Part shown: positions 1,448-29,559 of the stretch, in pieces
How positions within the stretch are numbered: the first letter of the stretch is position 1
Layout of the letters: every line of letters begins with the position of its first letter
Origin: a virus
Reading direction: 5' to 3' (one strand)
Virus record (IMG/VR): IMGVR_UViG_3300005295_000038
Coordinates: 1-40,739 of that record
DNA: 40,739 nt
Translations under genes and position numbers: made by a program
The notes under the pieces: generated by a model
Database searches by the model: none
What the model saw: only the letters and a program-made list of their open reading frames with translations
Told to the model about the DNA's origin: nothing

Positions 1448-2283
1448 CGTGCGAACCTCGGTCCTGCGATGTCGGGGCTGTAGACGCGCGAACGCTGACC
1501 CTTTCTGGCCGGGTTCACCGTGCGGATCCACAGGTCGACGTTGGCGATACCCGTGAGCCCGCTCTCCAGCAGAGTGGACGGGTCCATCACCTGTACCTCA
1601 ACCCCGTTGCGGGTCAGTGACGTCAACTGCTGCGGCAGCGTGCAGTCCTGTCCCGCGCACGCACGCGCGAACTCGACGGCGAGTTCGCCGGCCGCAAGCT
1701 GCCCCGCGCGCGGGACCGCGACGCCCCGCTGATAGGTGATGCCGAATGATCCCGGCTCATCCAGGTTGGCGTCCATGTCCTGGCAGTCCGGCCAACAGAG
1801 GCCGTCCGTACGGACCAGGACCGTGATACCGCGGTAGTTGTCGAGCCGGTATGAGGAAGAGGGGACCACGACTCCGTCAACGGTCACCTCGTCGACGACA
1901 AAGACCGGGCCAGGTAGTGCAATCTCACACGACGCGCGGCAGGAACAACCCCCTGCGCAGCTACAGTTCCGCCAGAGTCCGTTGTCGATCCACGGAATCA
2001 TCCAGGGCGCACCGGACGTCGCACCGTAGCTGACGGGGAACGTCATGTACCCGGTCGGCCCCTGGCATTTGGGCCCGCACGGCCGCAGCGTGAGGGAGCA
2101 CGGCCCGTACTGGCGGCCCGTGAGCCCCCACAGGATGTACGTCGCCCACGAAATGGCGGCGGTCTGTACGGCCGGTGCGAACGTCGCCCACACGTCATCA
2201 CAGACGACGTCCACGGGCCAGTTGCAAGGCCCCTCCTCCGCCGGAAACGTCGGCGGCGGAACCACCTGGTTGATCACGGGCAT
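1444..2283 (-). CDS. Head-to-tail adaptor, cysteine-rich
   Basis: A 279-aa protein. The first ~60 residues contain a helical adaptor-like stretch (DVWATFAPAVQTAAISWATY), consistent with gp6-type connectors that dock under the portal. The middle (about residues 60-125) is Cys-dense with CGPKC and a CSC..CSC..C cluster, and the C-terminal half is beta/helical. I count 14 cysteines. It is the first gene of the neck cluster, with SD TAGGAG 7-8 nt before ATG 2283. Known actinophage adaptors of this type are placed between capsid and stopper genes. Here a tail tube and fibre cassette intervene between it and the capsid genes. The function is inferred from order and general composition. Confidence 0.6.
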   Translation of the reverse strand: MPVINQVVPPPTFPAEEGPCNWPVDVVCDDVWATFAPAVQTAAISWATYILWGLTGRQYGPCSLTLRPCGPKCQGPTGYMTFPVSYGATSGAPWMIPWIDNGLWRNCSCAGGCSCRASCEIALPGPVFVVDEVTVDGVVVPSSSYRLDNYRGITVLVRTDGLCWPDCQDMDANLDEPGSFGITYQRGVAVPRAGQLAAGELAVEFARACAGQDCTLPQQLTSLTRNGVEVQVMDPSTLLESGLTGIANVDLWIRTVNPARKGQRSRVYSPDIAGPRFAR

Positions 2284-2291
2284 GGCGTCTC

Positions 2292-3470
2292 CTACGGGGT
2301 TGCGAACTTACCGGCCTGGATGAACACCGCCTGGGCAGGGTCGGAGAGGTTCGTTGCTGTGCGTGCCACCACAATGTAGCCCGCGAGTGCCGCGAACGAG
2401 GTGATGGGCGCCCGCACGAACGTCGCCTTGCCCACGGCCGCCACAGCCGCAGTCAGGCTGCTGTACGTGGACTGCCCGTACTGCACCGCGATCTGCGCCG
2501 ATGACACTCCGGTCGGGAACACCCACACGCGCTGAATCGTGGATGTGTTCGTACCGCCGCCGACCGGAGTCAGCACTCCGCCGACGTCATAGTTGGCGGG
2601 GTCGATGGTGGTCACGGCCGGCGGGGTCGTGATCGAAGCGGTGCGCAGGATCCGGCGCAGCGTGGCCGGGGCCTGGGCAGGGCTAGTCGTCTCGTGAGGG
2701 TTGTCCGTGAGGACGCCGGACACGAAATGCCCGGACCCGCGTACGAACAGGATCCCCGAGTCCTTGTTGAACGAGAGGTTCACCCCGTTCGGGGAGATCA
2801 GATTCCCGGACAGCTTGAGCGGGCCCACGGCGTCCATGAAGTCCGCCATCTGGTTCCCGGGCTGCCCCAGGATGACGGGCTGTGTCTGAACCTCTACTAG
2901 CGTGGCCAGGTTCGTGTCGTAGAACGAGATGCCGAGGGCCAGGTGCGTGCGCCGCTGAACGGGCGTGGCCGGCACGGCTTGCTGGGTAACGACGCCTGCA
3001 CTGTCCATCACCCAGTACGTGACCGACCGGGCCAGTGCTCCGGCGTCCAGCGGGACCACCTGGGTGGGCCGGTCGACCTTGATCGGGGTCGGCTCGACGG
3101 ACGTCAGTTCGTTGACGTCGGCGACGTACCCGACAAGGGCCTTGATCTCCACCGACTGGGGCCCCGCGATGTTCATCTCCCCGCCGGCCGCGATGCCGGT
3201 CGTGAGGTCGGCCTGTTCCTCCGTGAGTCCGACGTTGATGTCGAACGCCTCGGTGTCCAGGTGCACCCAGTACGGCCCCTCCTCCGCGTAGAACGTGAGG
3301 TACCCCGTGGGACTCGTGTTCAGCGGGTTGGGGAGCGGGATCGTACCGGCCTGGTCGGCGAACAGCGGGGCGAACGCGTTCACCTCGTGCAGGAACACGG
3401 CCGCCGGAACGTTGGCGGCAATGGCCCCGTTCGGGTACCAGTAGAGCTTGTTGTACTGGACGAGAGCCAC
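2292..3470 (-). CDS. Tail fibre / receptor-binding-like protein
   Basis: A 392-aa protein. Residues ~1-85 form a module (YPNGAIAANVPAAVFL, then PLFADQAGTIPLPNP, then GYLTFYAEEGPYWVHL) that is clearly paralogous to residues 8-75 of the gene at 4500-4961. The middle holds trimeric-fibre-like stretches (SVEIKALVGYVADVN; SGNLISPNGVNLSFNKDSGI), and the C-terminus is beta-rich. Start GTG 3470 (VALVQYNKLYW) was chosen because GGGAGGAAGG lies just upstream and reading frames further upstream are low-complexity Arg-rich shadow. It is the last gene of a four-gene fibre cassette. A host surface-binding role is inferred. Confidence 0.65.
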   Translation of the reverse strand: MALVQYNKLYWYPNGAIAANVPAAVFLHEVNAFAPLFADQAGTIPLPNPLNTSPTGYLTFYAEEGPYWVHLDTEAFDINVGLTEEQADLTTGIAAGGEMNIAGPQSVEIKALVGYVADVNELTSVEPTPIKVDRPTQVVPLDAGALARSVTYWVMDSAGVVTQQAVPATPVQRRTHLALGISFYDTNLATLVEVQTQPVILGQPGNQMADFMDAVGPLKLSGNLISPNGVNLSFNKDSGILFVRGSGHFVSGVLTDNPHETTSPAQAPATLRRILRTASITTPPAVTTIDPANYDVGGVLTPVGGGTNTSTIQRVWVFPTGVSSAQIAVQYGQSTYSSLTAAVAAVGKATFVRAPITSFAALAGYIVVARTATNLSDPAQAVFIQAGKFATP

Positions 3471-3481
3471 GGCCTTCCTCC

Positions 3482-4153
3482 CTAGGTGAGCTGTACGGAG
3501 ACGGCCGGGCCCTGAATGGTCCCCGCCGGAGTGCCAAACGATGCGGGGAGCGCACCGGCCACGCCGTCGATGTAGTAGGCGTTCAGGTTGGCGGTCATGG
3601 TGACCGCCGACTCGGTCACGTACGGGTCCCCGGTGTCCCGGGCGACAAGCCCCAGGTTGACGAGCCCGCCCTGACGGCCGAGGACCAGGTAGTGGAGCAC
3701 GGGCCGCACCACGGTGGACAGCCCGCTGATCTGCCGGATTCCGGTCACGCCCACCGTTACCGTGCCGTAATCGGCGACCAGTGTGGTCGGCAGGACACCA
3801 TCCGAGGCGTACAGGCCCATGCGCAGGCTGCCTCCTGCCACGGCCACCGTGACGCTCGCAGCCATGGCCGTGAGCGTGCACGTGCGCCCGGGCGCGAACG
3901 GAAGGGCGAACATGCGCGAGGCCGGAACGCTGGCCGAGCCGGCGGGCCCGAACGGCGGGATGACGTGCCACCCAGCCGGCCGGGGCGCCGGTACGTTGCC
4001 GATCGGGCCGACTGTGACCGGGATTCCGGCAGCCCCGTCTGAGGCGTGGACCTGGTCCAGATCGGACCGGTACCACATGTCCCCGGACGCTGTGGACGCG
4101 GGGGTAGTGGTCGTGTTGAAGAGCCGGGCCGCGACCTTGAGCAGTACGGACAT
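3482..4153 (-). CDS. Tail fibre-associated jelly-roll protein
   Basis: A 223-aa protein. After an N-terminal LFNTTTTPASTASGDMWYR segment comes a beta-sandwich-like pattern, about residues 85-160, around SLRMGLYASDGVLPTTLVAD. This resembles the 'R(M/L)G(I/L)Y..DG.PGTL..D.GTV' pattern of carbohydrate-binding jelly rolls found in many phage tail proteins. The gene at 36093-36701 has the same 'VGLYDSAGTRVA' signature. The start ATG at 4153 overlaps the stop of the upstream gene (TGATG). Probably part of the adsorption apparatus; no enzyme motif seen. Confidence 0.55.
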   Translation of the reverse strand: MSVLLKVAARLFNTTTTPASTASGDMWYRSDLDQVHASDGAAGIPVTVGPIGNVPAPRPAGWHVIPPFGPAGSASVPASRMFALPFAPGRTCTLTAMAASVTVAVAGGSLRMGLYASDGVLPTTLVADYGTVTVGVTGIRQISGLSTVVRPVLHYLVLGRQGGLVNLGLVARDTGDPYVTESAVTMTANLNAYYIDGVAGALPASFGTPAGTIQGPAVSVQLT

Positions 4154-4494
4154 CAGGCGGGCACCGGGATCACCAGCAGCCGGTACTGCGCAGCAGTCGG
4201 GGCCACGCCGAACGTGAGGCGCACGTCGTCCTCGGCCGCGCGCTCGATGGTCGGGTGCACAGTGGCGCCGGTGGCGATTTCGTACACCTGTACCAGTACG
4301 TCGAACGTCGAGAAATTGTGGCTGATCAGAAAGGTGGTCGCCACGCCGTCGCCGACGTTGGCCGCGAAGCCCTGGGGGGCAGACGCGGTGAGCTGATTGA
4401 CGTTCACCGCGTCCGTTCCGGCCACACCCGGAGCGAGTTCAGTGATCTTCAGGTTATTCATGTCGATCTGCTGGACGAACTGGACACCAGACAT
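4153..4494 (-). CDS. Short tail fibre module protein
   Basis: A 113-aa protein. It starts with a fibre-like repeat segment (MNNLKITELAPGVAGTDAVN VNQL, typical of trimeric phage fibre shafts). It ends in a beta domain with TTFLISHNFSTFDVLVQVYE, then VHPTIERAAEDDVRLTFG. The same C-terminal module, diverged, ends the neighbouring 153-aa protein (WTVAHHFGIQ, then DDETTVITFSAPTSGTAHL). Stand-alone genes of one shaft plus one tip domain suggest a modular, exchangeable fibre. SD GAGGCGG lies about 8 nt before ATG 4494. Confidence 0.55.
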   Translation of the reverse strand: MSGVQFVQQIDMNNLKITELAPGVAGTDAVNVNQLTASAPQGFAANVGDGVATTFLISHNFSTFDVLVQVYEIATGATVHPTIERAAEDDVRLTFGVAPTAAQYRLLVIPVPA

Positions 4495-18798: not shown

Positions 18799-19028
18799 GG
18801 TCGCCTCCCGAGGATGAGGGCCCGGTTGTGGATGGCGCGCCAGTCGGGGCGGTCGCGCCATCCGACGAGGAACAGGAACCGGACGTCGGAGCGGAGCGGA
18901 GCCAGGGTCTCGACGCCGCGCACGTAGCGGACGGGCCCGTCGTGCGGAGCGATGCCCTTGGCCGTACACCAGATGAGGAACGCGTTGTAGTTCTGGGCCA
19001 CGACGTAGAGGGGGTCAGAGGTGCTCAC
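18795..19028 (-). CDS. Small conserved-looking early protein
   Basis: A 77-aa protein: STSDPLYVVAQNYNAFLIWC, then PVRYVRGVETLAPLRSDVRFLFLVGWRDRPD and a basic C-terminus RALILGRRP. GTG 19028 overlaps the stop of the DUF2637-like gene (GTGA), and its own stop overlaps the next ATG (ATGA). The alternating 'vryv.....l......v..l.lvGW' pattern looks like a small alpha/beta fold. No function can be named. Confidence 0.55.
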   Translation of the reverse strand: MSTSDPLYVVAQNYNAFLIWCTAKGIAPHDGPVRYVRGVETLAPLRSDVRFLFLVGWRDRPDWRAIHNRALILGRRP

Positions 19029-19798
19029 GACTTGACCGTCCTCTCGTGCTCGACGTACTTCAAGAGCCGGGACGCGCGGGCCTGGCCAACGCTGGCGTAC
19101 TCCTTGAGGCCCCGCACCGTACCCGTACCCGCGTCCGCCAGGTACTCGCGGGCGAGTTCGAGGTACGCGAGGTCTCCCGCTTCGAGTACGGGTGCACTCG
19201 CGGGTCCGGGTTCGTACCCGTCCGGGAGGTCGGGTACGGGTGCGAGGTGGGGTACGGGGTACTCGTCGCTCATCCAGGCGGGTACGTGCGCGGGTACGGA
19301 GGCGAGTACGTGCACCCGGTCGGCGCAGTTCACCGGCCCCTCGTACTCGTGTACTCCGTCGCACCCGTCCAGGTGGTACCCGGGGGTCCAGGCCGGTACC
19401 TCGGGTGCACTCACCGCACCCGGGGCCTGTACCTCCTGTATCTGCGGCGTACTCGGGGCCGCACCCGCGTGTACCCGTAGGACATGACCGCGCCACACGA
19501 GGAGGGGTGCGAGTGCCCCCACGGCCGCGAGTACGGCCCAGTTCACGGGGAGTACGTCCTGCGCGACCAGGATGGACGCGACGTTGGCCGCGACCATGAC
19601 GAGTACGGCGGGGAGTACGTCCTTGTGTTTCTGGAGTGCGCGGATCACGTACAGATCCAGTGCACCGGGTACGGAGCACGCGACGGACCAGTGCAGGCCG
19701 GTGGCGGCCGCAAGGCTGTACTCCGCGTGTGCCGTGGCCACGAGTGCGCACCCGAGCTGCGCCCACAGGATCCAGTCCTGGCGAGTACGCGTACTCAT
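19025..19798 (-). CDS. DUF2637/SpdB-like membrane protein with C-terminal winged-helix, GTAC-rich gene
   Basis: A 257-aa protein. Four hydrophobic segments in the first ~105 residues (WAQLGCALVATAHAEYSLA; SVACSVPGALDLYVI; LPAVLVMVAANVASILV; AVLAAVGALAPLLVW) match the DUF2637 type found in Streptomyces plasmid-spread proteins and phages. A long Pro/Ala/His linker follows, then a winged-helix-like end (~205-257: TVRGLKEYASVGQARASRLLKYV). The DNA is exceptional: about 30 GTAC tetramers in 774 bp, many created by rare choices such as GTA-C and GGT-ACG across codons. Start 19798 overlaps the upstream stop (ATGA). Confidence 0.65.
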   Translation of the reverse strand: MSTRTRQDWILWAQLGCALVATAHAEYSLAAATGLHWSVACSVPGALDLYVIRALQKHKDVLPAVLVMVAANVASILVAQDVLPVNWAVLAAVGALAPLLVWRGHVLRVHAGAAPSTPQIQEVQAPGAVSAPEVPAWTPGYHLDGCDGVHEYEGPVNCADRVHVLASVPAHVPAWMSDEYPVPHLAPVPDLPDGYEPGPASAPVLEAGDLAYLELAREYLADAGTGTVRGLKEYASVGQARASRLLKYVEHERTVKS

Positions 19799-20409
19799 GG
19801 CGTACTCGTGGGACGGGTACGGGCGCACCCGCACCTGCTCTTCCCGAGAATGGCCCTGCACCCGTCGTGCTCGTCGTGAAACAGGATGCCGTGCCCGCAG
19901 CCGGTGCAGAACGCATTGCGGTGATCCCGCCAGTTACCTCCGCAGCCCCCGCACCTGGCGTCCGAGTGCGCATGAAGGGGTTGCACGAGCGGGCACGGGT
20001 CCGGCTCGGGGTGCCCGACGTCGCGGGGCTCGGGGTCCGGTTCGCCGTGCTCGAAGTGCTGCGCGGCGCCGGGGAACGCCGGGCACCCGGGGACGGTGCA
20101 CAGCCGGGCCGCGACGGCGTCCTCATAGCGGGCCTGCGGGCTCAGGTGGAGCGCCATGACCTCGGTGGCGGCCTGGGTGGCGATGGCGCGGACGTCGGCG
20201 GGGGTGAGGGGCATCGCGCGCACCGGGAACCCCTGGCTCAGCCACTGGTCGATTTCGTCACGCAGGGACCTGGCTTCCCGCCTACTCAGCTGCACCGGCA
20301 CGCGGTCCGAGTTGCTGGCGTGCCCGATGCGAACGCGGATGTAGTCGTTGGTCGCCGCGACGGACAACTCGTATCCGTCATCGTCGGTGTGTGCGAACAG
20401 GTAGCCCAT
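19795..20409 (-). CDS. Early protein with C-terminal zinc-ribbon-like cysteines
   Basis: A 204-aa protein. Residues ~1-60 form a beta-rich domain (YLFAHTDDDGYELSVAATND; VPVQLSRREARSLRDEIDQW). The C-terminal ~90 are Cys/His-rich: CTVPGCPAF, then CGGCGGNW.DH, FCTGCGHGILFHDEHDGC and SRCGCA. It may bind two or more zinc ions. It could be a nucleic-acid-binding adaptor in the replication operon. ATG 20409 overlaps the nuclease stop (TGATG). No named family is recognised. Confidence 0.6.
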   Translation of the reverse strand: MGYLFAHTDDDGYELSVAATNDYIRVRIGHASNSDRVPVQLSRREARSLRDEIDQWLSQGFPVRAMPLTPADVRAIATQAATEVMALHLSPQARYEDAVAARLCTVPGCPAFPGAAQHFEHGEPDPEPRDVGHPEPDPCPLVQPLHAHSDARCGGCGGNWRDHRNAFCTGCGHGILFHDEHDGCRAILGKSRCGCARTRPTSTP

Positions 20410-20795
20410 CACTTCTCCTCTCCGGGCGCCCACGGCACCCAATCTTTGGGCCCGGGGCCCGTCAGTTCGCGGTACAGGATCGTCTTGCGGCGTGCGTTGT
20501 TCGGGTCCTGGGCTCGGTAGGCGACAACCGGCAGGGCCCCTGCCCGGAGGGCGAGGTCCTGCACAGCGAGTCGCTCGGCCGGCGGGATGACCGGGTTGGT
20601 GATCTTGCACTGGATGAAGAGCAGGTCAGCGTCCGGCTGTGCTCCGCACTCGTAGGTGCGGAGCGGACCCACCGCCACGACGTCCACGGCGCCGCGCGAG
20701 CCGGAGGATCGCAGGCACGTGTACCCGTGCTCCTCCAGCGCATGCATGACATCCAGCTCGAACTGGGCACCCTGGCGTGTGGTGTTACGCGCCAC
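20409..20795 (-). CDS. Holliday-junction-resolvase-like nuclease (PD-(D/E)XK)
   Basis: A 128-aa protein. RQGAQFELDVMHALEEHG near the start, then SGSRGAVDVVAVG with D at ~41, then LLFIQCKITN form the E...D...Q-C-K arrangement of archaeal Hjc-type and phage PD-(D/E)XK resolvases. The usual (D/E)xK is represented by QCK. It would resolve branched DNA before packaging or act in recombination with the helicase. Start GTG 20795 (VARNTTRQG) was preferred because an upstream ATG frame overlaps a separate 38-aa membrane gene. The SD is weak. Confidence 0.65.
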   Translation of the reverse strand: MARNTTRQGAQFELDVMHALEEHGYTCLRSSGSRGAVDVVAVGPLRTYECGAQPDADLLFIQCKITNPVIPPAERLAVQDLALRAGALPVVAYRAQDPNNARRKTILYRELTGPGPKDWVPWAPGEEK

Positions 20796-20901
20796 GGTTG
20801 CGCCGCCTGTCTTCCCGGCGCTGCGAGAAACGGCCCATGTGGAACAAAAAGGCCCCCGATACGACATTGGCCACGATGCGCACCCAGTCCCAGTCAGCCA
20901 C
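20785..20901 (-). CDS. Tiny membrane protein, 38 aa
   Basis: It encodes VADWDWVRIVANVVSGAFLF, then a highly basic tail (RFSQRREDRRRNRGA). GTG 20901 overlaps the stop of the 66-aa gene (within 8 nt), and its end overlaps the nuclease start by 11 nt. A short hydrophobic helix plus positive C-terminus is typical of small phage membrane peptides. It fills a gap otherwise lacking a gene. Confidence 0.5.
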   Translation of the reverse strand: MADWDWVRIVANVVSGAFLFHMGRFSQRREDRRRNRGA

Positions 20902-24285: not shown

Positions 24286-24456
24286 ATGCAGTCACTCGCC
24301 GAGGGTGAAAGCCCCTCCATCACCGTGCGCATGCCGCGCACCACCATCGAACGCCTTGACCGGGAGTGCCGTACCTACGGCCTCTCCCGGTCGGACGTCG
24401 TCCGCCAGATCCTCGACGCCGCACTGGCCCGGTCCGAAGCGGGGGACTCCGAATGA
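24286..24456 (+). CDS. Ribbon-helix-helix (Arc/CopG-like) protein
   Basis: A 56-aa protein: SPSITVRMPRTTIERLDREC, then YGLSRSDVVRQILDAALAR. It has one beta strand and two helices, the standard RHH DNA-binding dimer. ATG 24286 was chosen over an upstream frame because the strand begins just after it; no strong SD is visible. Its stop overlaps the polymerase fusion start (ATGA), suggesting autoregulation coupled to replication. Confidence 0.7.
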   Translation: MQSLAEGESPSITVRMPRTTIERLDRECRTYGLSRSDVVRQILDAALARSEAGDSE

Positions 24457-27400
24457 CCCTCAGCTCAACCCACCGGCAGTACCTGAACGAGCACGCCGTC
24501 ACCGACGACGTCATCGAACGGCACGGCGTCCGCTCCGAGGGCGATGAGATCGTCTTCCCCTGGACCGACGGCGACCGCCACACCGAGCAGCGCCGGCCGT
24601 GGCCGGGCGGATCCGGGGTCTACTTCTGGGAGCCGGAAAAGGATCTCCACTTCTGGATGCTCCGCGACGCCGGGCCCGGTACCCCCGTGCTGCTAATCGA
24701 GGGCACGAAGCAGTCCCTGGCCGGCTCCGCGTACGCCCCCGAGGGCTTCACCGTGATGGGCATGGCCGGGTGCTGGGGTTGGTCCAAGGAGAGGCTGGGC
24801 CGGTTCAAGGACCGTGACGTGTACCTCTGCCTCGACGCTGACGCCGCGTCCAACCTGGACGTGTACGAAGCGGGCGACAAGCTCGGGGAAAAGGCACGGA
24901 GGTATGGGGTCAACCTCCGTTACCTCCGGATCCCCGGCTCCGGGTCCCAGGGCCTCGACGACTACCTCGCCTCCCTCGAGGAGGACGAGCGCGCGGAGAT
25001 CCTGGCGTACGAAATCCAGCACGCGCACTCCAAGCCCGCCGAGCGGCGGCCGACGAACCGCAAGCGCAAGATGGAATCGGACATGCCCGACCTCGGTGAC
25101 CGTGTCGGGGTGGCCATCAACCTGGACCGCAAGCAGGTTATCGACAAGATCACCGGTGCGCTCAAGGAGCGGCACGACGCTGTCGACCTGTTCAACTACG
25201 GTGACGTCCTGACCCGCGTACAGGGTCACGAGACCCAGCCGCTGGACCGGGACCGCTTCTACGCCATGCTCGCCGACGCCGTCGCGTGCTTCCGGTACAC
25301 GGAGGCAACGGACAAGCGACCGGCACTCTTCGAGCCCGCGTGGCCCGACCCGCCGTCGATCGGCGCGGTAATGAGCAAGTCCGAGGAGTTCTCGACGCTG
25401 ACGCGTGTCGTCCGGGTGCCGTTCCTGCGGCCGGACGGCTCCGTGTGCACGGCGCCCGGGTATGACCGAGAGACGACCACAGTCCTGGTCCCGTCCGGGC
25501 TCGGTGAGCTGCACGTGCCGGAGGAGCCGACCAAGGAGCAGGTCCGTCTGGCGGCCAAGTACCTCCTCTCGGAGTGGCTCGGGGACCTGCCGTTCAAGAC
25601 CGAAGCGGACCGCGCCAACGCCCTGGCGTGGGCTCTGACGCCGTTCATGCGCGGCCTGGTCCCCCTGGCGCCTCTGACAGTGGTCAGCGGCCTCCAGATG
25701 GGCGTCGGCAAGAACCTCCTCGCGGACTGCATCCACATCCTGGCGACCGGGGAGGCGGCCATGCCTCTGCCGTACGTCGCCTCGGAGGAGGAGATGCGCA
25801 AGCAGTTGACCGCCGCGTTCGCCGGCGGGGCCGAGATGTTCATCTTCGACGAGGCGCACGTCGTCGAGGGCGCACAGCTTGCCCGCGCAGTGACGTCGCT
25901 GACCTACGGGGACCGCGTACTCGGTGTCTCGCGGATCGCGAAGTTCCCGAATCAGGTGACGTGGGCCAGTCTCGGGAATCAGGTTCAGGTGAACGGGGAC
26001 ATGGCCCGGAGGGTCTACTTCGTCTACCTCCATCCCACCTCCGACAACGTCATCGACCGGGAGGCCAAGGAGTTCCGGCACCCGGACCTCAAGGCGTGGA
26101 CGAAGGAGAACCGCACGGACCTCGTGAGTGCCGCCCTGACGGTGCTGCGCGGGTGGGTTGTGGCCGGACGCCCGGCGTACTCCCGCGGGGCCTGCATGGG
26201 CTCGTTCGAGCCCTGGGACCGGATGCTGTCGGGTGTCCTGGCCTACGCGGGTCACCCGGCATTCCTGACGGACATGCGGGAGCGCCGGTCGGAGTCGGAC
26301 TACACGAACTCGTACTGGGAGTCGCACATCCACTGGCTTCACAGCCTGTTCGGGGACGAGGAGTTCACGACTCGGCAGGTTCAGGAGGCGGCCCTGCGGG
26401 ACCCGGCAGGGTACGAAGCACCTCCCGGGATGGAGGACGCGTCTGGGAAGGCGTTCACGCGGCAGCTCGGCCAGGGGTACGCAAAGCACCGCGACCGCAA
26501 CTACAACGGGGTGCGTCTGGTCAAGGCGGGCATGGGGCACAAAAGCACCATCAAGTGGCGAACCGTCTCGCAGAACGGAGGTATGGAGGTGAGTGGAGGT
26601 AACGCTACTACCCCCCCTGTTACGGGAGAACGTCTCTCAGACGTGCGTGACGCACACACGCGTGTAGAGGCGCAGGGTGGTGCGGTTCCCTCCACCTCCC
26701 TCCTTACCTCCAGTGCTCCGCTGGAGCCGCAGGGTTCGCTGACCTATGACGACTGGGGCAGCGTGGTGGGGCCTGCGGAGTACCCGGACCAGGAGCCGAC
26801 CGTCCTCGGGTTCGACCTGGAGACCGCATCGGTAGAGCAACTCTTCACCGGCGGCCACGAGGGACCGTACGTCCGGCTCCCCGGCGTCATCACGGAGGCG
26901 ACTGAGCGGATCATCCCCACAGTCCCGACGCTCCTGGCCACGCTCAACCGTGCCGACGTCATCCACGATCACAACGGGTTCGGGTTCGACCTGCTCGCGT
27001 TGGCGCGCCACTGCGGGGCCGACTACGCCGGGCTCGCGGCCAAGAACTGGGACACGCAGGTGGCCGAGTACGTCATCGACCCGCCCCTGTCCAAGGGCAT
27101 GCCGAGCGGGTACTACAGCCTGAACGGCCTCGCCGAGCGGTACGGGGTGCCGGCCAAGACCGACGACATCAAGCGGCTTGCGGCCAAGCACGGCGGGTTT
27201 GACCGCATCCCGCTCGACTCCCGCGAGTATCAGGACTACCTCCTCGGCGACCTCGCCACCCAGCACGGCGTGTACAAGGCGCAGCGCGCCCGTGCGACCG
27301 AACTGGGCCTGGACGAGTACCTGGCCCGGGAAATGCGTGTGGCGGCTCTTCAGAACACCTGCACGCTGAACGGCTGGAAGGTCGACACCGAACTCCTCGC

Positions 27401-28694
27401 CGAGCGTGTGAAGCACGAGGACGATCAGCGTCTCGCGGCCATTCAGGTTCTGCACACGGAGTACGGGGTGCCGTTGGCCCGACCGGACCGGTACAAGGTG
27501 AAGCCCCGAGCTGAGTGGCCTGAGGACTACCGCAACGAGCTGTCGGTGGCCCTGGTCCGCGAGGGGCTCCAGGAGGACCCGGAACGCTCCGTCGAGGCGG
27601 GGCTCGCCGTCCGCATCCCGGGGGAGCCGTACATCAAGCCGTGGGGGTCTCCGGCCGGCCGGGCCGCCATCGTTGCCGCCGGCAAGCGCGCGGGTGCGGA
27701 GCACTGGCCTCTTTCCGAGTCCGGTACCCCGCTCACGTCTGCCGACGCGCTCGGTGACAAGGAGTGGTACGACGCGGACCGCAAGGACAACGTCCCCGGC
27801 TTGCTGGAGGTGTACGGCCACCTGGACGGCGTTCGGGCGCTCGTGGACACAATCAGCCTGGCAACGGGGGCCCGCGCGAAGTATGCCGAGTTCGACAAGT
27901 GGCTGACTCCGGAGGGCCGCGTGCATCCGCTCGTGGGTGCCACACAGGGGTCGGGTCGGTGGGCGTACGTCAAGCCGTCCACGTCGACCACAGGGAAGCG
28001 TGGGCCCGCAAAGGCGGAGCGGGACGTTTTGGTTGCCGACGACGGGCACATGATGCTCACCTCGGACCACTCGCAGCTCGACGTTCGTACGGTTGCGGCT
28101 CTGTCGCAGGATCCCGAGCTGATCGGGATGCTCCAGCCGGACTCGGAGGACTATCACGAAGCGATGGCGGAGGTGTACTTCCGGGACCGGTCGCGCCGTT
28201 CGGACGCGAAGCCCATCAACCACGGCGTGAACTACGGGCAGGGGTTCCTGGCCATCGCCAAGCGCAACGGGCTCGATCCGGAGATGGTGCGCCGGGCCCT
28301 TATCGCCCGCGGTGACCGGTTCATCAAGCTGATGCAGTGGACCGAGGCTGTGCGTGCGCAGGCGGAAGCCGGCATGCTGCTCGACAACGGGTTCGGCCGG
28401 CCGATGCGGCCCTCGCCCGGGCGCGCGTACACGCAGGCGCCTGCGCTCATGGGCCAGGGTGCGTCCCGTGACGTGATGGCGGAGTCGATGCTGCGCCTGG
28501 ACCGCATCTCCGAGGGCCGCGTGCGCCCGTTCCTGCGGGGTGTCATCCACGATGAGATCGTGCTGTCGGTGCCGGAGGCGGACGTCGTCGAGTGGCAGGA
28601 GATGCTGCGGGAGGCGATGACCTGGGAGTGGCGCGGGGTCCCGATCCTGTGCGATGTCAGTGCTCCTGCCTACCGTTGGTCGGAGTGCGCCTAA
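24453..28694 (+). CDS. TOPRIM-helicase-exonuclease-family A DNA polymerase fusion
   Basis: A 1413-aa replication polyprotein. Residues ~1-170: TOPRIM domain (LLIEGTKQ with E83; YLCLDADAA with D128/D130), as in DUF3854-type primase-helicases. Residues ~400-530: D5-like/AAA+ ATPase (Walker A SGLQMGVGKN 412-421; Walker B MFIFDEAH; NGDMARR as arginine finger). Residues 709-755 are encoded by a dispersed repeat. Residues ~785-950: 3'-5' exonuclease (GFDLET; HDHNGFGFDLL). Residues ~1000-1413: PolA with motif A TSDHSQLDVR (D1205), motif B AKPINHGVNYG (K1253) and motif C VIHDEI (D1367). I saw no separate primase catalytic domain. ATG 24453 overlaps the RHH stop. Confidence 0.9.
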   Translation: MTLSSTHRQYLNEHAVTDDVIERHGVRSEGDEIVFPWTDGDRHTEQRRPWPGGSGVYFWEPEKDLHFWMLRDAGPGTPVLLIEGTKQSLAGSAYAPEGFTVMGMAGCWGWSKERLGRFKDRDVYLCLDADAASNLDVYEAGDKLGEKARRYGVNLRYLRIPGSGSQGLDDYLASLEEDERAEILAYEIQHAHSKPAERRPTNRKRKMESDMPDLGDRVGVAINLDRKQVIDKITGALKERHDAVDLFNYGDVLTRVQGHETQPLDRDRFYAMLADAVACFRYTEATDKRPALFEPAWPDPPSIGAVMSKSEEFSTLTRVVRVPFLRPDGSVCTAPGYDRETTTVLVPSGLGELHVPEEPTKEQVRLAAKYLLSEWLGDLPFKTEADRANALAWALTPFMRGLVPLAPLTVVSGLQMGVGKNLLADCIHILATGEAAMPLPYVASEEEMRKQLTAAFAGGAEMFIFDEAHVVEGAQLARAVTSLTYGDRVLGVSRIAKFPNQVTWASLGNQVQVNGDMARRVYFVYLHPTSDNVIDREAKEFRHPDLKAWTKENRTDLVSAALTVLRGWVVAGRPAYSRGACMGSFEPWDRMLSGVLAYAGHPAFLTDMRERRSESDYTNSYWESHIHWLHSLFGDEEFTTRQVQEAALRDPAGYEAPPGMEDASGKAFTRQLGQGYAKHRDRNYNGVRLVKAGMGHKSTIKWRTVSQNGGMEVSGGNATTPPVTGERLSDVRDAHTRVEAQGGAVPSTSLLTSSAPLEPQGSLTYDDWGSVVGPAEYPDQEPTVLGFDLETASVEQLFTGGHEGPYVRLPGVITEATERIIPTVPTLLATLNRADVIHDHNGFGFDLLALARHCGADYAGLAAKNWDTQVAEYVIDPPLSKGMPSGYYSLNGLAERYGVPAKTDDIKRLAAKHGGFDRIPLDSREYQDYLLGDLATQHGVYKAQRARATELGLDEYLAREMRVAALQNTCTLNGWKVDTELLAERVKHEDDQRLAAIQVLHTEYGVPLARPDRYKVKPRAEWPEDYRNELSVALVREGLQEDPERSVEAGLAVRIPGEPYIKPWGSPAGRAAIVAAGKRAGAEHWPLSESGTPLTSADALGDKEWYDADRKDNVPGLLEVYGHLDGVRALVDTISLATGARAKYAEFDKWLTPEGRVHPLVGATQGSGRWAYVKPSTSTTGKRGPAKAERDVLVADDGHMMLTSDHSQLDVRTVAALSQDPELIGMLQPDSEDYHEAMAEVYFRDRSRRSDAKPINHGVNYGQGFLAIAKRNGLDPEMVRRALIARGDRFIKLMQWTEAVRAQAEAGMLLDNGFGRPMRPSPGRAYTQAPALMGQGASRDVMAESMLRLDRISEGRVRPFLRGVIHDEIVLSVPEADVVEWQEMLREAMTWEWRGVPILCDVSAPAYRWSECA
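24896..24930 (+). repeat. Short GGAGGTA/TACCTCC relic
   Basis: ACGGAGGTATGG followed by AACCTCC and TTACCTCC within 35 nt reproduces both ends of the ~140-nt dispersed repeat with almost no interior. It is in frame inside the TOPRIM-domain end of the fusion gene. Confidence 0.4.
26574..26712 (+). repeat. GGAGGTA-bounded dispersed repeat, copy B (in coding sequence)
   Basis: This 139-nt element aligns with the minus strand of 8755-8894. It is translated in frame as part of the fusion protein (about residues 708-754: MEVSGGNATTPPV, then HTRVEAQGGAVPSTSLLTS) and sits exactly between the ATPase and exonuclease/polymerase halves. Copy A is one base longer, so the same peptide frame is broken there. 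Confidence 0.85.
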
Positions 28695-28764: not shown

Positions 28765-29407
28765 ATGAAGGTACTGGATCTGTTCTGCGGGGTCGGCGGG
28801 GCGAGCAAGGGCTACGCAGACGCGGGGTTCGAGGTGGTCGGGGTGGACATCAACCCCCAACCCGACTACCCGTACAAGTTCGTTCAGGCGAACGCACTCG
28901 ACATGCTCGACATGCTCGGGGAGTTCGACCTGGTTCACGCGTCGGCCCCCTGCCAGTACGACGCGGCCATCACTCGGGGTACGAACAAGCACCTGCGGCA
29001 CACGTACCCGGACCTGATCGGCCTGACGCGGGCCATGCTCGAAGCGAGCGGCAAGCCGTACGTCATCGAGAACCCGGCCGCTCGGCCCGACCTGGTCCTG
29101 TGCGGTGAGATGTTCGGCCTCCGGGTCATCCGGCACCGCAACTTCGAGTTGGGTGGCGGGGACTGGGGTGCCGAGCAGCCCGAGCACATCAAGCACAGGG
29201 GCCGCGTGGCGGGTATGCGTCACGGGGAATGGTTCGAGGGCCCCTACTTCGCCGTGTACGGCAATGGCGGCGGCAAGGGCACCGTGCCCCAGTGGCAGGA
29301 AGCCATGGGCATCCACTGGACTTCGGTCCGCAAATCGATCGCCGAAGCGATTCCCCCCGGCGTACACCCGGTACGTCGGCGAACAGTTCCCGAGGAGGAG
29401 CACGTGA
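28765..29407 (+). CDS. C5-cytosine DNA methyltransferase, frameshifted near its end
   Basis: The intact product would be 213 aa. VLDLFCGVGGASKGYADAG is motif I (SAM binding), APCQYDAA with C63 is motif IV (catalytic), and VIENPAA is the ENP motif; the target recognition region is very short. A run of six C (29353-29358) breaks the end: the open frame reads IPPGVHPV and fuses into the next gene. Removing one C gives IPPAYTRYVGEQF and a TGA at 29405-29407, the ending this family normally has, overlapping a GTG start. Likely phage DNA protection from host restriction. SD AGAGGAG precedes ATG 28765. Confidence 0.8.
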
Positions 29408-29559
29408 GCAGTCTCGAAGAGCAGCTTGCCGCGGAGGCGGCGCAGCGCGAGGCCGAACGCCAGGCCCAGGCCGCCGCGGCGGCGCAGGCCCTGGCGGACG
29501 CACAGAAGGTGCTGGACCAGAGCGGGGTTTCCATCCCGCCCGGCGCGTGGGGGCACTGA
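29404..29559 (+). CDS. Small alanine/glutamate-rich helical protein
   Basis: A 51-aa protein: SSLEEQLAAEAAQREAERQA, an alanine-rich coiled coil, and SGVSIPPGAWGH at the C-terminus. A strong GAGGAGGA SD lies right before GTG 29404, which overlaps the methyltransferase TGA (GTGA) if the C-run frameshift is corrected. As the sequence stands it is fused to the methyltransferase frame. Its stop overlaps the next ATG (TGATG). Role unknown. Confidence 0.6.
   Translation: MSSLEEQLAAEAAQREAERQAQAAAAAQALADAQKVLDQSGVSIPPGAWGH

Follow-up and report, generated by a model that had tools for sequence, protein, structure and literature searches.

The closest precedents for the locus described here are two plasmid systems: SpdA2/sps, in which binding sites lie inside the binder's gene, and TraB/clt. 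SpdA2 of pIJ101 is described as binding sps palindromes within its own gene and as affecting segregational stability (PMC4170104). According to three accounts (PMC4170104, PMC3583192, PMC12857230), TraB binds 8-bp repeats (TRS) at clt of Streptomyces conjugative plasmids; in pWTY27, TraA is the protein that binds the clt repeats, and this clt shares 16 bp with the end of traA. SpdB2 of pSVH1, the product of a plasmid spreading gene, is characterized as an integral membrane protein with non-specific DNA binding, and as of 2014 Spd proteins had no similarity to any functionally characterised protein (both PMC4170104).

Here we report a viral gene that resembles both systems and, by the features tested, is a member of neither. 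Its coding sequence is crowded with copies of a short word, and we refer to it and its homologues as array genes. As in SpdA2/sps, short palindromes (GTAC, CCGTACGG and CGGTACCG) occur inside the gene of the putative binder, in the same host group, and the sps sites likewise match a repeated amino-acid motif (PMC4170104). The sps word CGTCACGTGACG, however, is found in only two to three 12-bp copies and is conserved across plasmids. Array genes carry about 10-40 copies of words that differ with the C-terminal helix-turn-helix (HTH) type, and they encode a membrane-type protein, whereas SpdA2 is small and the consulted part of PMC4170104 describes no membrane binding for it. TraB/clt is alike in having clustered short repeats that differ between plasmids, bound in that system by a membrane-associated transfer protein. 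The clt locus is short, lies beside a tra gene and has few repeats, whereas an array gene holds its sites within itself. TraB is also an FtsK-type ATPase; no ATPase domain was found in the viral array protein, which has no match in Pfam, PHROGs or NCBIfam. SpdB2 of pSVH1, compared by description, has the membrane association and DNA binding predicted for the array protein and differs in that its binding is non-specific (PMC4170104). The open PMC literature, with subscription journals mostly outside the scope of the search, yielded no description of such intragenic arrays among the papers listed.

The window, by which we mean the whole 40,739-bp stretch analysed, is a record classed as a virus. 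It encodes terminase, portal, tape measure, head-tail adaptor, endolysin, helicase, exonuclease and methyltransferase, as well as a family A DNA polymerase joined to a primase. The latter is a 1442-aa protein (24366-28694) with a primase-like N-terminus and a middle region matching families of unknown function. A small gene at 20409-20867 is similar to Hjc, the Holliday junction resolvase of archaea (22.8 bits in Pfam against a cut-off of 21.1), and adjoins a RadD-like helicase. None of the window proteins that were tested was recognised as an integrase. Given the 68% G+C content and the plasmid homologues described below, the host is probably a streptomycete-like actinobacterium. Features of the array gene are listed in Table 1.

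Table 1. Features of the array gene and its surroundings in the window
Feature	Coordinates	Strand	Basis
Gene for 257-aa protein (predicted membrane domain, linker, C-terminal HTH; 30 GTAC)	19025..19798	(-)	
GTAC array: 32 GTAC with GTGCAC, GRGTRC and GYACYC words in between	19055..19820	(.)	
Upstream gene, 615 bp, overlapping the array-gene start	19795..20409	(-)	
Hydrophobic, probably membrane-spanning domain, residues 1-112	19463..19798	(-)	Low-confidence helices; homology to plasmid proteins
Variable linker, residues 113-203	19190..19462	(-)	Low pLDDT; poor conservation among orthologues
Predicted C-terminal helix-turn-helix domain, residues 204-257	19028..19189	(-)	Three modelled helices

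A sequence-only reading had noticed about 30 GTAC tetramers in this 774-bp gene, roughly tenfold more than base composition predicts, and only about two in the adjacent 615-bp gene. Both counts proved exact. The 30 copies compare with 2.26 expected from base composition (13-fold excess) and 4.3 expected from the rest of the window (7-fold). The two copies in the upstream gene fall within its last 26 bp; its stop codon overlaps the ATG of the array gene at 19795-19798, and these two copies complete the array of 32. The enrichment is limited to this gene, as had been claimed. Among the 253 GTAC of the window, the densest 774-bp stretch sits at the array gene (32 copies), and in 300 first-order Markov simulations of the window no such stretch held more than 10. 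Across 42 predicted ORFs, the longest form of the array gene (837 bp, 32 GTAC) reaches 38 per kb; the second-densest, a 213-bp ORF, has 18.8 per kb, and the window mean is about 6 per kb. Chance and base composition are thus ruled out as the cause by the window counts and simulations. The related words GRGTRC/GYACYC and GTGCAC are also enriched, so GTAC is the core of a motif and not the whole motif. The commonest site spacings, pooled over four phages, are 6, 12 and 20-23 bp.

The array is maintained by codon choice. We ran synonymous-codon controls for the window gene and 16 homologues. Permuting synonymous codons within the window gene left 15.5 +/- 2.2 GTAC (p<=0.001), and applying the codon usage of other array-bearing genes gave 9.1 +/- 2.0, with a maximum of 15. 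These controls exclude codons forced by the protein as the cause of the density and bear out the earlier statement to that effect. GTAC copies occupy all three codon frames (15, 5 and 10). The unusual choice of GTA for valine before C was also correctly recognized: GTA is used for 15 of 18 valines preceding C in the array gene versus 50 of 315 in other window genes (p=3e-9), and all 15 GTA codons of the gene stand before C.

Orthologues at 49-52% identity were identified on three IMG/VR contigs (L002, L003 and L004). They contain 24, 18 and 15 GTAC, versus 4.0, 2.9 and 3.7 expected. Only 13, 9 and 7 of the 30 window positions are shared with them, respectively, yet at pairs of identical amino acids the window GTAC is retained in 8/8, 5/7 and 5/6 cases, indicating that the density is kept while individual sites turn over. 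The bias at conserved amino acids that had been proposed as a check is therefore present in orthologues. Codons touched by GTAC are more conserved than others in comparison with L002 (20/24 versus 62/107, p 0.02), and show no significant extra conservation in comparison with L003 or L004. In L002 and L003 the array starts about 450 bp upstream, inside the counterpart of the 615-bp gene. The phage arrays also cover membrane-coding DNA, with 25 sites per kb versus 1.9. Neither DNA nor protein resembling the array gene was found among 50,697 phage records, and a scan of genome contigs with the phage alignment gave no match.

A more distant phage contig (L005) has the same gene with 3 GTAC (2.8 expected) and 17 copies of CTCCCG instead, in an array that runs on downstream of the gene. 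Two suggestions of the sequence-only reading fall with these comparisons. One was recent acquisition from a GTAC-rich source, which does not fit since the three orthologues, at about 50% identity, share the enrichment and most of their neighbouring DNA does not. The other was that GTAC is a methylation signal. The phage does encode a probable DNA methyltransferase (28765-29559; PHROG 363), but homologues carry quite different words in the same gene, which contradicts GTAC-specific modification or restriction as a general explanation. We regard either account as scarcely credible. The wider idea that the tetramer is a signal survives as a binding or transfer-type site, kept in orthologues and, as described next, changing with the HTH.

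Homologues detected by protein similarity on actinobacterial plasmids (12 of 17 plasmid records from the search were read, L006-L017) carry arrays of TGAGAC, TGAGAG, TGAGCG, CGGTACCG, CCGTACGG or GGAAA. Across plasmids and other contigs, the array words of distant homologues include TGAGAC, CCGTACGG, TACCGGTA, TGAGCGC, CGGAAG and GCTCCCG. On three whole plasmids, 12 of 15, 19 of 26 and 16 of 24 copies of CCGTACGG lie inside the array gene. Scanning genomes and viral contigs with the plasmid membrane domain added 24 genome loci and 8 virus-labelled contigs, with word enrichment of varying strength in the array gene; a viral-contig scan with the CCGTACGG-type HTH found no relative. We then scored the top 6-mer of each ORF, leaving the word free and giving control ORFs the same free choice. 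Over 49 loci the array gene has a median -log10 P of 17.9, versus 3.0 for 273 other ORFs (99th percentile 13.7). It shows the strongest enrichment among ORFs in 43 of the 49. The exceptions are L003, L009, L027, L044, L045 and L047; in L003 it is narrowly outscored by an ORF that overlaps it and has a top word of similar type, GGTGCA. Enrichment is weak in the CGCCAAGA group, and in L010 and L022 the array word differs from the top-scoring word. Separately, a gene of about 2 kb located two to three genes downstream of the array gene (L012, L014, L030, L040 and others), annotated on plasmids as ATP/GTP-binding or hypothetical, has a second, lysine-codon-like enrichment (AAGAAC, GAAGGA, GAAGAA, AAGAAG).

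The C-terminal sequences sort into types, each paired with its own word; nine such classes have been distinguished so far. In 41 of the 49 genes, after removal of eight near-duplicates (over 90% in both domains), we related the 5-mer profile of linker DNA alone to protein identity in the membrane domain and over the final 60 residues. Median word cosine is 0.84 where both domains are alike (124 pairs), 0.04 where the membrane domain is alike (>=65%) and the HTH different (34 pairs), and 0.79 where the HTH is alike (>=50%) and the membrane domain 40-65% identical (6 pairs). By partial Mantel test, word correlates with HTH given membrane domain (r 0.73, p 0.0005), and a small residual correlation links word to membrane domain given HTH (r 0.24, p 0.0005). 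Natural swaps illustrate the pattern. L034 and L035 have membrane domains 92% and HTHs 15% identical, with words CCGGTA versus CCGTACGG; L011 and L013 (76% and 25%) have CGGTACCG versus TGAGAG; L046 and L047 (91% and 20%) have CGCTCA versus CGCCAAGA.

We also fixed a prediction before fetching further sequences: genes retrieved through the HTH alone should carry the word of that HTH type. The prediction held in 10 of 11 newly fetched genes, which were drawn from HTH-only matches as 8 of 48 records (some of the 48 already sampled), 1 of 7 and 2 of 2. CCGTAC occurs 13-20 times versus 1.1-2.2 expected in eight genes, whose favoured flanks are looser than CCGTACGG (e.g., CCTGTACG), and CCGGTA occurs 13 times versus 1.4 and 21 times versus 0 in two. 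SAP1 (S. avermitilis) and pSHJG1 each carry one of the confirmed genes. The prediction failed for L093, with 3 TGAGA versus 1.9 expected and a top word, GAGACC, close to expectation. The HTH of this locus (1571-4171, on an S. scopuliridis plasmid) resembles the TGAGAC type at 48% and differs in its recognition helix, and the top words GAGACC and CGAGAC are one base off the expected word.

We therefore consider it likely, from sequence comparison, that the product of the array gene is a DNA-binding protein anchored in the membrane, and that an array of its cognate sites lies in its own gene. The homologues' words change when the HTH changes, so the gene is probably also the place where its product lands. 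The linker is adjacent to the HTH, and a swap may move the two as a single module, so the association of word and HTH alone is no proof of binding. A related, quite improbable account is that the words have no DNA function: they would merely reflect a low-complexity linker that spread through slippage and is passed on as one module with the HTH. The plasmid linkers are indeed repetitive in protein (GET, RTDAGRTP, RTEQ), most forward copies in plasmid arrays share one reading frame, and plasmid sites lie mostly in linker and HTH-coding DNA, with few in membrane-coding DNA. However, copies are found on both strands and in several frames, the phage array covers conserved membrane-domain codons, and the GTA valine codons of the window gene are placed before C without exception. 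Words also persist at 38-48% HTH identity despite different membrane domains (L013 versus the TGAGAC class). The worry about a single module is reduced further by arrays that extend beyond the gene (L002, L003, L005) and by cognate words that in the TGAGA class are also raised in the DNA coding for the membrane domain (3.1 per kb versus 0.6; 15 copies over 14 genes); a similar rise is less clear in other classes.

Structural prediction is consistent with an HTH at the C-terminus. In the AlphaFold2 model, three helices make up the last 50 residues with pLDDT near 90, residues 113-198 score about 30-45, and the membrane part is modelled poorly. Against the PDB, the C-terminal model scores best with the FtsK gamma domain (46 residues aligned at rmsd 1.2 A, Z 5.9), with which Lrp-type HTHs tie. 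The TGAGAC-type C-terminus is modelled as a three-helix, HTH-like domain with generic matches below Z 5, the FtsK gamma domain not among them. Given this tie and the generic matches, our prediction goes as far as an HTH, and the FtsK gamma resemblance is a lead only. By sequence, a search of the PDB with the C-terminal domains returned no HTH relative, only repeat proteins and chance matches, and profile comparison of phage and plasmid HTHs is weak (P 0.0022 for the CCGTACGG type, 0.21 for the TGAGAC type). In contrast to the HTHs, the membrane domain is clearly homologous between the phage protein and those of plasmids (hhalign, 108 columns, E 4.9e-20). Thus, the window gene shares membrane domain, variable linker, predicted C-terminal HTH and intragenic array with a set of plasmid proteins that are probably membrane-anchored.

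The gene had been labelled DUF2637/SpdB-like. What stands of this label is a remote likeness of the membrane domain: PF10935 (DUF2637) matches array genes below cut-off in 5 of 13 records searched (best 20.2 bits, in L011; curated cut-off 22.8 bits). The window gene itself has no PF10935 match. We compared 30 true DUF2637 loci (26 genomes and one plasmid, by a comparable test); this control is rough, as frames were picked automatically and some are wrong. Their median word score is 4.3, versus 23.8 for array genes L018-L041, and the absence of comparable arrays from these loci shows that an array is not a trait of every DUF2637 gene. At least one true member (L051) likewise ends in an HTH-like stretch. 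Two true DUF2637 loci from Streptomyces, L083 and L084, have 17 and 19 GCAGCC versus 2.0 and 1.5 expected, which may represent similar arrays or alanine/glutamine codon bias; L084 ends in an HTH-like stretch. The classical pIJ101 genes spdB, spdA, kilB and traB carry no array at a comparable level.

The plasmid context suggests a role in plasmid spreading or transfer, since the array gene lies at the head of a transfer block. In six of the eight loci taken from the set of 48 HTH-matched records (L085, L086, L088, L090, L091, L092), two small genes come after it, then one for an ATP/GTP-binding protein, one annotated TraB and, where the stretch ends, ParM or TraA. The layout on SAP1 is similar, with genes that lack names, and L089 has a different order and a type IV coupling-type gene. 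The words could be a real protein-binding cluster that the gene merely houses and that another protein reads, such as a partition or host nucleoid protein or a translocase like TraB/FtsK. The binding of 8-bp clt repeats by TraB is a precedent (PMC4170104 and PMC3583192), TraB-annotated genes are near the plasmid array gene, and another plasmid has an FtsK/HerA-like ATPase (weak match) nearby. However, the word tracks the HTH within one gene, including in swaps between otherwise similar elements, and the window proteins tested, which cover part of the ORFs, include no recognisable TraB or FtsK-like protein. We judge a separate reader unlikely. On the L015 plasmid, ParA and ParB genes exist apart from the array gene, which is therefore not the sole partition system there.

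An equally unlikely explanation is that the array serves as a replication origin or autoregulatory element, in the form of iterons in the binder's gene, with the membrane part mattering less. Sites within a binder's gene have precedent in lambda O, where the origin iterons lie inside the initiator gene; they are far fewer, function in replication, and belong to a protein with no membrane domain. The phage array gene is also near the helicase, the resolvase-like gene and the DNA polymerase/primase. Weighing against this explanation, cumulative GC skew does not change direction at the array, the L015 plasmid encodes its replicative helicase elsewhere, and a few sites are enough for an autoregulator, versus the 15 to 40 seen here.

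If the encoded HTH does read the array in its own gene, the hydrophobic N-terminal domain would anchor the protein at the membrane and the C-terminal HTH, at the end of a flexible linker, would read DNA. The GTAC array in and beside the gene would be the cluster of cognate sites, onto which many copies of the protein could load, tethering the phage genome to the membrane. With cognate sites within the gene, the coding sequence would also be a cis-acting locus. The ancestral role was probably DNA spreading or transfer between mycelial compartments, as suggested by the TraB and ParM or TraA annotations in the plasmid block, or else membrane retention of the element. In the phage, replicating genomes may be held or moved at the membrane. 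More speculatively, array genes may form a family of self-addressing membrane proteins in actinobacterial plasmids and phages, in which each gene serves its product as a loading site, much like a centromere or clt, and the word is rewritten at 15-40 intragenic positions per exchange of C-terminal domain; the phage could have taken over a device for plasmid spreading and use it to keep its genome at the septa of mycelial hosts or to carry it across them.

Dozens of sites for a gene's own product, kept in its coding sequence, would be an extreme case of overlapping information, and the natural HTH swaps may provide a ready-made code for protein-DNA recognition. Should binding be confirmed, the arrays would point to a locus that acts in cis when plasmids spread in mycelial bacteria, and would suggest that phages of mycelial bacteria share that device.
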